Assembly (NCBI GenBank): GCA_021818105.1
Contig: JAKAFB010000002.1
Coordinates: 1 to 64,000, forward strand
Direction of reading: 5' to 3'
DNA length: 64,000 nt
From: Acidobacteriota bacterium
Lineage (GTDB): Bacteria > Acidobacteriota > Terriglobia > Terriglobales > Acidobacteriaceae
Both the position numbers and the translations under genes were made by a program. Below the pieces are notes generated by a model that saw nothing but the letters and a program-made list of their open reading frames with translations, had not been told where the DNA came from and did not search any database. Of this stretch, positions 41,813-44,575 are shown piece by piece (the first letter of the stretch is position 1; every line of letters starts with the position of its first letter).

Positions 41813-41888
41813 TGGTGAGCTCGCTGGGATTCGAACCCAGGACCCACGCCTTAAAAGGGCGTTGCTCTACCTGCTGAGCTACGAGCTC
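41813..41888 (-). tRNA. tRNA-Lys (UUU), CCA encoded
   Basis: The minus strand folds as a full cloverleaf. The acceptor is GAGCTCG/CGAGCTC with discriminator A and encoded CCA (41815-41813). The D-arm contains AGCTCAGCAGGTAGAGC. The anticodon stem ACGCC/GGCGT encloses CTTTTAA, so the anticodon is UUU. The T-arm is CTGGG-TTCGAAT-CCCAG. No intron. Confidence 0.97.
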
Positions 41889-41953: not shown

Positions 41954-43078
41954 TCAGCCCCGGCGGAGCGGCTTCTGCATGGGCACCACCTGCACGCTGA
42001 CGTCGCGCACTTCTGCAAGAAAGCGGTTGAGCACGGAGCCGCGCAGGAGGATGTCCCAGCGCGAGCGCGCGGACTGGCCGAAAACTACGTGGGAGATATT
42101 TTCCTGCTGGGCGAAACGAATGAGGGCGTCGGAAACGTTCTTATCGGTGAGGGTGACAACCTCTGCGCCGAGATCGCGAGCCATGCGCTGGTAATCCTCT
42201 AAGCGCTGCGCCGCTTCGGGGTCGGTGTGGCCCTTATGGTCATTGGGTTGGCCAACATAGATCGCAAACCAGTTGCTGGCGAGGCGGCCGGCAATCCGGG
42301 CTCCGACGCGGAGCAGGCGCTCGGTACCGGGGCGGGTGCTGAGGCATACCATGACCTTCTCGGGCATGGGAGCCTGTTCCAAGCCCTGTGTGCGGCGATA
42401 TTCGGCCGCGTGCTTGCCCACCTGCTCTGCCGTCGTGCGCAGGGAGAGCTCACGCAGCAGGTTCAGATTGCCTTTGCGGAAGAAATTGGCCAGAGCCTGC
42501 TCGACTTTTTCTGGATGGTAGATCTTGCCTTCACGGAGGCGCTGGCGCAGCTCTTCTACGGTGACATCGACGTTGACAACTTCGTCTGCGCGCTTGAAGA
42601 AGTTATCTGGGACAGTCTCACGTATGACCGTGTTGGCTGAGCGAGTAACGGCGTCGTTCAGCGTCTCAAGATGTTGGATGTTGACGGCGGTCATGACGTT
42701 GATGCCGGCTTCGAGCAGCTCGATGACGTCTTCGTAGCGTTTGCGGTTGCGGCTGCCGGGGACGTTTGTGTGTGCCAGTTCGTCGACGACTACGGTGTGA
42801 GGGCGGCGGGCGAGGATGGCGTCGAGGTCCATCTCTTTGAGCTCAACGCCGCGGTAGTTGATGACGCGCAAAGGGATGATTTCGAGGTCACGAATCTGTT
42901 CGGCGGTTTCTTTGCGGCCGTGCGGCTCAACCAGGCCGATGACGACATCCAAGCCTTGCTTCCGCTTGATCAGGGCGTCATTGAGCATGTGGTACGTTTT
43001 GCCGACGCCGGGAGCCGCTCCGATGTAGACGCGGAGTTTACCCAACTGAGGTGTTTCTTCCAGCATGAGTTCTGCCAT
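41954..43078 (-). CDS. KdpD N-terminal domain plus universal-stress domain, no kinase
   Basis: 374 residues. The KdpD sensor domain opens KLRVYIGAAPGVGKTYHML (Walker A) and has VVVDELAHTNVPGSRNRKRY (Walker B region). A universal-stress-protein-like domain follows from about residue 240 (KVMVCLSTRPGTERLLRVG...HVVFGQSARSRWD). Full KdpD adds four membrane helices and a histidine kinase; here those are absent. A separate kinase-like gene ends 3 bp upstream, so KdpD appears split with order reversed. No kdpFABC or kdpE is in the window. Confidence 0.92.
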   Translation of the reverse strand: MAELMLEETPQLGKLRVYIGAAPGVGKTYHMLNDALIKRKQGLDVVIGLVEPHGRKETAEQIRDLEIIPLRVINYRGVELKEMDLDAILARRPHTVVVDELAHTNVPGSRNRKRYEDVIELLEAGINVMTAVNIQHLETLNDAVTRSANTVIRETVPDNFFKRADEVVNVDVTVEELRQRLREGKIYHPEKVEQALANFFRKGNLNLLRELSLRTTAEQVGKHAAEYRRTQGLEQAPMPEKVMVCLSTRPGTERLLRVGARIAGRLASNWFAIYVGQPNDHKGHTDPEAAQRLEDYQRMARDLGAEVVTLTDKNVSDALIRFAQQENISHVVFGQSARSRWDILLRGSVLNRFLAEVRDVSVQVVPMQKPLRRG

Positions 43079-43081
43079 GGC

Positions 43082-44488
43082 TCAGCCCACCTCAACGGGG
43101 TGATGGACGACGTCCATCACGGCTACGGGAAGCGTAAATCGGAAGGTGGTGCCGTGGTCGAGACGGCTCTCAACGGCAATCTGGCCACCGAGGGACTCCA
43201 CGAGGCGGCGAACCAGAGCGAGGCCCATCCCGGTGCCGGTGTCAGAGAAGGCGTTGAAGCGGTCGAAGATGGTGCTGAGCCGTTCTGCCTCGATGCCTCG
43301 GCCAGTGTCGCGCACGCTGAACTGCACGAAGTCCGGAATCTCCTCGGCAGCCAGCGTAATCTCGCCTTCAGGCGGCGTGTAACGCAGGGCATTTGAGAGC
43401 AGGTTGTCGAGGATGGAGCGCACGGCGCGACGGTCAGCCTTGATAACGGAGAGATCGGCGAAGGCGTTCACCTCCATGCGAATGTGCTTGGCGGCGGCTT
43501 CATCGCAAAAACGATCGCGTGCCTCATCCAGCATGACAATGGGGCGTAGGCGTTCGAGGTGCAATTCGCGTTTTCCGGTATCAATTTCAGCCACTTCTAT
43601 GAGATCGGCCATGAGGTCGTTGAGCTTCTCTGACTCGCTGCTGGCGGCGGCGACAAGGTCAGCCTGCAACGGCTGGAGCGGTCCTGCAAAGCCCTGGGCC
43701 AGCGCGTAGAGGCCGCGGCGCAATTGCAGCAATGGCCCGCGCAGCTTGCGGCTGGCCACGGTGATGAATTGCGTTTTGAAACGGTCGGTGTCCTGCAGAG
43801 TGGTGACGTCTTCCAAGGTGGTTACGGTACCGAGCAAACGGCCCTCGGAGTCGCGCATTGGCGTGGTGCGCAGGCGGTAGCTGCGCGCCTGCTTGCCGAT
43901 GCGCATGGGAAGCATCGCGGCTTCTCCTTCGGCAGCAACGGGCTTTTGCATGGAGACGGCATCGCGAATGGCGCTGAGGATCTTGTCGCCGCCGGGGGTG
44001 GTGGTGAGGGCCATGCGATCCGAGGCGGCCTCGCCAAGAATTTCAGCAGCTGCCTGATTGACCTTGAGGACGTGGCCTTTGCTGTCCGTCACGATGATGG
44101 GTTCGAAGATGGATTGCAGTACGGCATCGGAGAGCTGGAACTCCATCTGTTTGAGGCCGGCCTCGGTGTCACGCAGGTCGCGCAGGCGTACCGCGATGCG
44201 GTTCAGTTCGCTGGCTATGATGCCGAAGTCGTCATGGCTGCTCCATGCCACTCGATGCTCAAGGTTGCCCTGGGCGATTTTCCTGGCGTCGCGGGCGACC
44301 ATGCGTATGGGGTGCAGGACGAGAAGAAGCATGCCCACCTCGACCAGCACAATTGAAACTGCAAATGCATGTGCGGCAAAGGATTGGCCTCCTGTGGCGA
44401 GGGCTTGGTGCGTGACGGCGAGCATGCCCACGAGAAGAGCAGCGATGAGGATGCAGCCAAGAAGAAGACGCTGGGTAAGATTCAGCAT
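43082..44488 (-). CDS. Membrane HAMP-PAS histidine-kinase-like protein with Arg at the phospho-acceptor site
   Basis: 468 residues from the ATG at 44488 (ribosome-binding site weak; frame open to 44569). Two hydrophobic segments (about 8-26, 42-60) and a HAMP-type linker RKIAQGNLEHRV, then a PAS domain (SIFEPIIVTDSKGHVLKVNQ). The dimerisation helix reads FITVASRKLRGPLLQL where kinases have S-H-E-L-R-x-P, so the His is Arg247. The ATPase part is intact: N-box DNLLSNALRYTP, G-boxes DTGRGIE and GTGMGLALVRRL. It is 3 bp before the KdpD-N gene. ATP binding seems preserved, but autophosphorylation on the usual His cannot occur. Confidence 0.88.
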   Translation of the reverse strand: MLNLTQRLLLGCILIAALLVGMLAVTHQALATGGQSFAAHAFAVSIVLVEVGMLLLVLHPIRMVARDARKIAQGNLEHRVAWSSHDDFGIIASELNRIAVRLRDLRDTEAGLKQMEFQLSDAVLQSIFEPIIVTDSKGHVLKVNQAAAEILGEAASDRMALTTTPGGDKILSAIRDAVSMQKPVAAEGEAAMLPMRIGKQARSYRLRTTPMRDSEGRLLGTVTTLEDVTTLQDTDRFKTQFITVASRKLRGPLLQLRRGLYALAQGFAGPLQPLQADLVAAASSESEKLNDLMADLIEVAEIDTGKRELHLERLRPIVMLDEARDRFCDEAAAKHIRMEVNAFADLSVIKADRRAVRSILDNLLSNALRYTPPEGEITLAAEEIPDFVQFSVRDTGRGIEAERLSTIFDRFNAFSDTGTGMGLALVRRLVESLGGQIAVESRLDHGTTFRFTLPVAVMDVVHHPVEVG

Positions 44489-44575
44489 GACAGAAAACCC
44501 ATAGTGCCATTCTGGCTGATGGACACGGAATCGCCAAGTGGTTCGATGCGCCTCAGCAGTTGATTGCACTCCCCA

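Follow-up and report, generated by a model that had tools for sequence, protein, structure and literature searches.

A histidine kinase-like membrane protein without its phospho-acceptor histidine, encoded beside a predicted stand-alone KdpD serine kinase in Acidobacteriaceae

In the acidobacterial genome considered here (the window analysed is a stretch of 64,000 nucleotides from a soil member of the Acidobacteriaceae) a gene for a histidine kinase-like protein, pHK, has an Arg codon where the phospho-acceptor His is expected. Comparison of pHK sequences gives good support to the loss of its phosphotransfer residues, and on the same evidence the loss of the His is general among the orthologues and old. 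The reading of pHK as a pseudokinase is accordingly one that the alignments support. The gene directly downstream specifies KdpD-N, and we propose, with a confidence that falls just short of even, that pHK would be a phosphotransfer-dead membrane sensor which gates KdpD-N, a stand-alone KdpB serine kinase.

The pHK gene and its product

The pHK gene (43082..44488, minus strand) encodes 468 amino acids with a HAMP-PAS-DHp-CA arrangement, as deduced from Pfam matches, alignment and an AlphaFold2 model. A preliminary description of this DNA had reported Arg for His at 43748-43750, and re-reading bears this out. The plus strand there is GCG, which gives CGC, Arg, on the minus strand, and translation and orthologue alignment place it at the phospho-acceptor position (43748..43750, minus strand). 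It is residue 247 when counted from the ATG at 44488, and 274 when counted from an upstream GTG at 44569. The start is conserved, with 30 same-genus rows, each begun at the position equivalent to 44488, aligning gap-free over 468 columns; the start codon is TTG at loci L004 and L021.

In the numbering of the 495-aa frame, Pfam matches HAMP at 84-131, PAS_4 at 154-258 and HATPase_c at 379-483 (96.6 bits, above the cut-off), and HisKA at 265-332 with 19.3 bits, below its cut-off of 26.9. Two N-terminal helices are taken as transmembrane. The CA (ATP-binding) domain, located by Pfam and alignment (43121..43435, minus strand), has the N, G1 and G2 boxes that HATPase_c domains of active HisKA kinases have, in agreement with the intact N-box and G-boxes described earlier. 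Its ATP lid is short, by alignment about 3 residues shorter in the window's family than in His-bearing relatives (the count by pattern worked for three of the nine His rows). The AlphaFold2 model (mean pLDDT 70.7, pTM 0.44) shows long helices at the N-terminus, then a DHp hairpin (H234-264 and H273-304) and a CA fold; this predicted structure and a fold search, in which whole-chain TM scores were low, confirm only a histidine-kinase fold.

Loss of the acceptor histidine

None of the 88 genomes read (56 of the same genus, 28 from other genera of the family and four from outside it) has His at the acceptor site. The same-genus genomes have Arg in 53 cases and Lys in three (51 Arg and three Lys in 54 genomes, then two more genomes with Arg). 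The other genera of the family have Gln in 17, Glu in three, Arg, Ser and Ala in two each, and Leu and Asp in one each, and the four genomes outside the family have Gly (two), Ser and Asn. The site could be read in 35 of the 36 pHK genomes of the family sample, the fragment in G727 starting after it. His is equally absent from the 79 of 80 named loci that cover the site, a set that overlaps the 88 genomes, the residues being Arg (68), Gln (3), Ser (3), Lys (2), Ala (1), Glu (1) and Asn (1). Since orthologues from other genomes are also without His, Arg247 is not a read error, and the objection foreseen in the preliminary description, His-bearing orthologues combined with such an error, falls away.

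Arg itself is not a required residue. Outside the same-genus genomes Gln, Glu, Ser, Ala, Asp, Asn, Gly or Leu is found at the site, and two close relatives that are 73-76% identical, L099 and L138, have Gln and Ser respectively. With the residue varying even at this distance, the feature held in common is the loss of His, not the gain of Arg. Conservation of Arg had been suggested as a check, and the outcome is divided: ten residue types occur, but His is absent from every orthologue read.

Active HisKA domains have the motif HExxT/N, in which an acidic residue (Glu or Asp) follows the His and Thr or Asn is at +4. In the window pHK the HExxT form has become RKxxG, with K248 at what we take to be the acid/base position and G251 at what is presumably the position of the phosphatase Thr. 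The motif is thus missing from the window protein at both positions (Lys, Gly). The 79 named loci have Lys (77) or Arg (2) at +1, and at +4 Asp (69), Gly (5), Asn (4) or Thr (1), five of them therefore having the +4 residue of the motif.

Six residues of the CA domain (N362, N366, D394, G396, G398 and G422) are unchanged in all 75 named loci that cover them and in all 20 further genomes; G420 is Ala in two of the 75. This retention is what would be expected if the CA domain were still a kinase in trans, transferring phosphate to a residue in KdpD-N or to a His in the DHp of some partner. Such activity is quite improbable given that the acid/base position has Lys in 77 of 79 loci and Arg in the other two, that the ATP lid is short and that pHK has no invariant His; further, no dedicated partner DHp was identified, with the kdp set alone used as neighbour probes. 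The lack of an invariant His, evident from the alignment columns of 30 pHK orthologues, also rules out an alternative conserved acceptor within pHK, and speaks against the autophosphorylation at another His for which the preliminary description had left room.

Elsewhere in the window's genome 13 of 15 HisKA matches keep their His, the exceptions being pHK and the L222 match (G000:C18:23520-23711), which has Arg at its acceptor site (NVTRQLNNPL) in a 1348-aa frame.

Selection and descent

The dN/dS of pHK against its closest relative (91% identical) is 0.064 overall, with regional values of 0.02 for PAS, 0.014 for DHp, 0.042 for CA and 0.18 for the TM part, and three further pairs give overall values of 0.060 to 0.085, all of these figures being rough since overall dS is high (0.88 to 1.99 in the four pairs); regional values were obtained in all but two cases. 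By these ratios pHK is not decaying, and its PAS and ATP-binding motifs are under purifying selection. Read error and recent inactivation as the cause of Arg247 are ruled out by the His-less orthologues together with this selection. pHK therefore has what marks a pseudo-histidine kinase in sequence, namely histidine kinase architecture, loss of the His in orthologues, and selection. Two explanations had been offered at the outset. The pseudokinase one gains from the His-less orthologues, the replacement of two more DHp catalytic positions and the retained CA motifs; the other, an inactivated gene kept by its coupling to the KdpD domain, is at odds with the low ratio overall and in DHp, CA and PAS.

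It is likewise barely credible that pHK is a relic in decay which its operon neighbour carries with it. The HisKA score drops from 68.2 bits in one His-bearing relative to 19.3 in the window pHK, a periplasmic domain (the four-helix extracytoplasmic domain of some relatives outside the window's family) is absent in the window's genus, and the gene is absent in five of 59 same-genus genomes, one of them, G062, 99% complete. Yet 50 of the 59 have it at full length, four pairs give a dN/dS of 0.06-0.085, constraint is stronger on PAS and CA than on the TM part, and G062 is also without KdpD-N and kdpA.

In a tree of 31 sequences, rooted at the midpoint, the 21 pHKs form one clade (100/100). Nine of the ten relatives outside it keep His; the tenth, L209, has Gln on a long branch, which looks like a separate loss of His. 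[L209 is from another family; the gene (L209:8787-10619) adjoins kdpABC and KdpD-N there, and its kinase-like product has altered N and G2 boxes.] The nine His-bearing relatives comprise five beside kdp genes (L206, L207, L211, L212 and L215), three away from them (L210, L213 and L214) and L208, which is on a short contig. Because only five of the nine adjoin kdp genes and the root is a midpoint one, descent from a kdp-linked kinase is tentative; pHK most likely goes back to an active histidine kinase of HAMP-PAS type that belonged to the Kdp (high-affinity K+ uptake) system.

Pairing with KdpD-N

KdpD-N (41954..43078, minus strand) starts 3 nt past the pHK stop codon. It has stand-alone KdpD and Usp domains in 374 aa and is, from NCBIfam and residue comparison, a predicted atypical serine kinase (ASK), though its best NCBIfam match, NF038185 KdpD_non_kinase ('KdpD-like non-kinase potassium sensor'), is at 420.8 bits and so below the cut-off of 550. 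A tRNA-Lys (ttt) gene (41813..41888, minus strand) is 3′ of the two-gene unit.

pHK is carried by 54 of the 59 same-genus genomes searched (36/36 in the first sample), four of the copies being partial, at contig ends, split or broken. KdpD-N adjoins it in 53 of the 54 and in 19 of 20 further genomes, the one remaining case in each set being cut by a contig end. Among the 80 named loci the two adjoin in 74, with KdpD-N always downstream on the same strand, and in the remaining six the sequence stops no more than 328 nt from the pHK match. Within the genus a KdpD domain occurs in 53 genomes, every one of which carries pHK. The five without pHK (G062, G065, G073, G075 and G080) are also without KdpD-N, four of them being only 71-87% complete.

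pHK is present in 36 of 150 family genomes chosen for 90% completeness; every one of the 36 also has a KdpD domain, and kdpA is found in 34. Of the 114 that lack pHK, 94 still have a KdpD domain, as do genomes without a detected diadenylate cyclase (G038, G052 and G054, for instance), so an ASK can do without pHK. A single clade (100/99) unites the KdpD-N proteins encoded next to pHK and those of L206 and L209, which fits joint inheritance with pHK, although the position of L204 is not the same in the pHK and KdpD-N trees.

KdpD-N as a serine kinase and the kdpABC loci

PMC11018627 (sections 8 and 9) describes the N-domain of E. coli KdpD as a serine kinase acting on KdpB, whose Ser162 it phosphorylates when K+ is high, thereby inhibiting the pump, and split ASK and HK chains as most common in Acidobacteriota and Chloroflexota. 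The ASK residues GKT, D109, E110 and R190 are kept in all 74 KdpD-N proteins compared. The position of W39 is occupied by Tyr in 61, Phe in 11 and Trp in two; the window protein, with Tyr, thus has the Walker A GKT, the Walker B DE and R190 of an ASK, and at W39 a residue that is aromatic, not identical. KdpB in the window's genome keeps Ser162 and Glu161. These intact ASK residues and the target Ser, taken with the loss of catalytic residues from pHK, its conservation and the pairing, are the direct support that sequence gives to the proposal.

The window's genome has its kdpABC on a separate contig, where KdpE and a KdpD-C kinase with an intact HDLRTPL are also encoded. Outside the window's family, in f10 and f23, the gene order is kdpABC-pHK-KdpD-N, and three of the four loci there (L175, L178 and L205) continue with KdpD-C (with its His) and KdpE, neither of which was found at the L204 locus; the f10 genome G057 has no pHK. 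Within the window's family pHK is beside kdpABC in no locus read, and in the 80 named loci tblastn gave no match to kdpA within the flanks, which extend to at most 6 kb.

A role in transcription has some appeal, pHK then forming a complex or heterodimer with KdpD-C and tuning its kinase/phosphatase balance towards KdpE, as DivL does with CckA. KdpD-C, with His, and KdpE are near kdpABC in all 16 loci fetched from pHK genomes (the His being recognised by pattern in 15 and by reading in L234), L175, L178 and L205 carry everything in one gene cluster, and DivL is a proven pseudo-histidine kinase coupling to another pathway (PMC4211667). Nevertheless we regard this role as unlikely: in the loci of the window's family that were read it is KdpD-N and not KdpD-C that pHK adjoins, and in other families (L176, L177, L179 and L180) KdpD-C and KdpE occur without pHK.

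No kdpA was found in two pHK genomes, G274 (99% complete) and G781 (90% complete), the other 34 of 36 being positive, and the pair may therefore serve more than Kdp. Locus L195 is the pHK-KdpD-N pair of G274. That pHK and KdpD-N are not mainly a Kdp regulator and control another target is rather improbable, even with the pair being away from kdpABC in the window's family as well as present in those two genomes; weighing the other way are kdpA in 34 of the 36, the position of the pair beside kdpABC in f10 and f23, and the target Ser retained in KdpB.

A second KdpD-N copy occurs in other Acidobacteriota, mostly in kdp operons (L173, L174, L181-L184, L186-L192 and L207), usually just upstream of the intact copy. 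In the 14 frames T38 is changed to S and E110 of Walker B to G, A or S, and the copies form their own clade (100/100). With these changes the second copy may be a pseudo-serine-kinase partner, which would solve the control of the ASK in a parallel way. A same-genus example, L192 (G079), has the pHK pair and also a kdp locus where KdpD-N occurs twice in tandem.

c-di-AMP and the proposed mechanism

According to PMC11018627, the E. coli ASK is under the control of the K+-sensing TM/GAF region of its own polypeptide and the short ASK of Deinococcus geothermalis under that of c-di-AMP, and Silberberg et al. ascribe control of the short ASK of such species to its own Usp domain (section 9), a view that tells against the present proposal. 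The c-di-AMP motif of Usp is given as SXS-X20-FTAXY in PMC4686210.

Control of the window's KdpD-N by c-di-AMP is disfavoured, as no cyclase was found in the genus and the Usp motif is of the E. coli type. Diadenylate cyclase (PF02457) was detected in none of the 36 same-genus genomes, the window's own (98% complete, so that a miss is possible) included; these 36 are one genus, hence one evolutionary case, and cover one pHK genus. Outside the genus it is present in 11 of 24 genomes. The window's Usp reads RVGARIAGRLASNWFAIY, which is the E. coli-type pattern and lacks the c-di-AMP motif. Among the Usp domains of the 74 named KdpD-N proteins, 67 are E. coli-type and seven have neither pattern. 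Only L203 among the pHK-linked frames of this comparison has neither. Where KdpD-N adjoins neither pHK nor a pHK-like kinase, the E. coli type is confined to L211 and L212, and no frame has the c-di-AMP pattern.

In the mechanism that we favour, an ancestral HAMP-PAS kinase would have lost its acceptor His, acid/base Glu and phosphatase Thr and kept its PAS and its ATP-binding fold. pHK most likely binds KdpD-N, with which it is encoded, and KdpD-N, by homology, would phosphorylate the Ser in the TGES motif of KdpB so that the pump is turned off. Other inputs to the ASK are apparently missing, the TM/kinase part being a separate gene at kdpABC and a c-di-AMP cyclase not having been found, and pHK, as a membrane-anchored PAS-HAMP protein with a putative ATP pocket, would be the missing sensor. 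Since the ASK is without a TM/GAF part of its own, and without c-di-AMP as far as seen, and is paired with a membrane PAS-HAMP protein, pHK is most simply taken to be that sensor. It would hold KdpD-N at the membrane and gate it through conformation or occupancy by ATP, with no transfer of phosphate. We infer the direction of change, the ATP binding, the contact, the gating, and K+ as the signal. More doubtful, though of appreciable probability, is the fuller version in which the two proteins are one receptor whose dead DHp-CA core allosterically switches the serine kinase that shuts KdpFABC, in replacement of the c-di-AMP signal.

Comparison with known systems

The ASK domain, Usp, the TM part with its DHp-CA kinase, and KdpE of the E. 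coli KdpD system (PMC11018627) are all encoded in the window's genome. There, however, ASK/Usp and the TM-kinase are split into two genes, and the ASK has beside it a third protein, kinase-like but apparently phosphotransfer-dead. D. geothermalis likewise has, in its short ASK, a stand-alone KdpD and Usp chain (PMC11018627). It differs in being responsive to c-di-AMP, whereas the window's Usp is without the c-di-AMP motif, a cyclase was not found, and the neighbour is a putative pseudokinase.

Other HAMP/PAS kinases of Acidobacteriota, such as that of L206 beside kdpABC and KdpD-N, are homologous to pHK over HAMP-PAS-DHp-CA but keep the His (ASHELRTPL in L206), and in L206 a receiver gene follows. 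NifL is a further histidine kinase-like regulator, one that works by binding; PDB 9qq6, a fold-search match, is presumably to be set beside it, going by its title.

There is a likeness in kind with DivL of Caulobacter, described in PMC4211667 as a PAS-DHp-CA protein with neither kinase nor phosphatase activity, in whose homologues the acceptor His is replaced (by Tyr, and by Ala in one). PDB 4q20 is a structural match of the pHK model. DivL is a sensor of DivK~P with a link to CckA, whereas the neighbour of pHK is a predicted serine kinase of the Kdp system; a further difference is that the acceptor-site residue of pHK varies widely.

Pseudo-histidine kinases and split KdpD are each known, and their combination is unreported in the literature searched (titles and abstract openings of open-licence PMC papers), where no kdp-linked pseudokinase was found. 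For a stand-alone KdpD serine kinase that is without K+-sensing domains and without c-di-AMP, its pHK neighbour offers a concrete and testable route to the sensing of K+. If the proposal is right, a histidine-kinase fold would have come to serve a serine kinase as its input arm, to be placed alongside pseudo-histidine kinases such as DivL.
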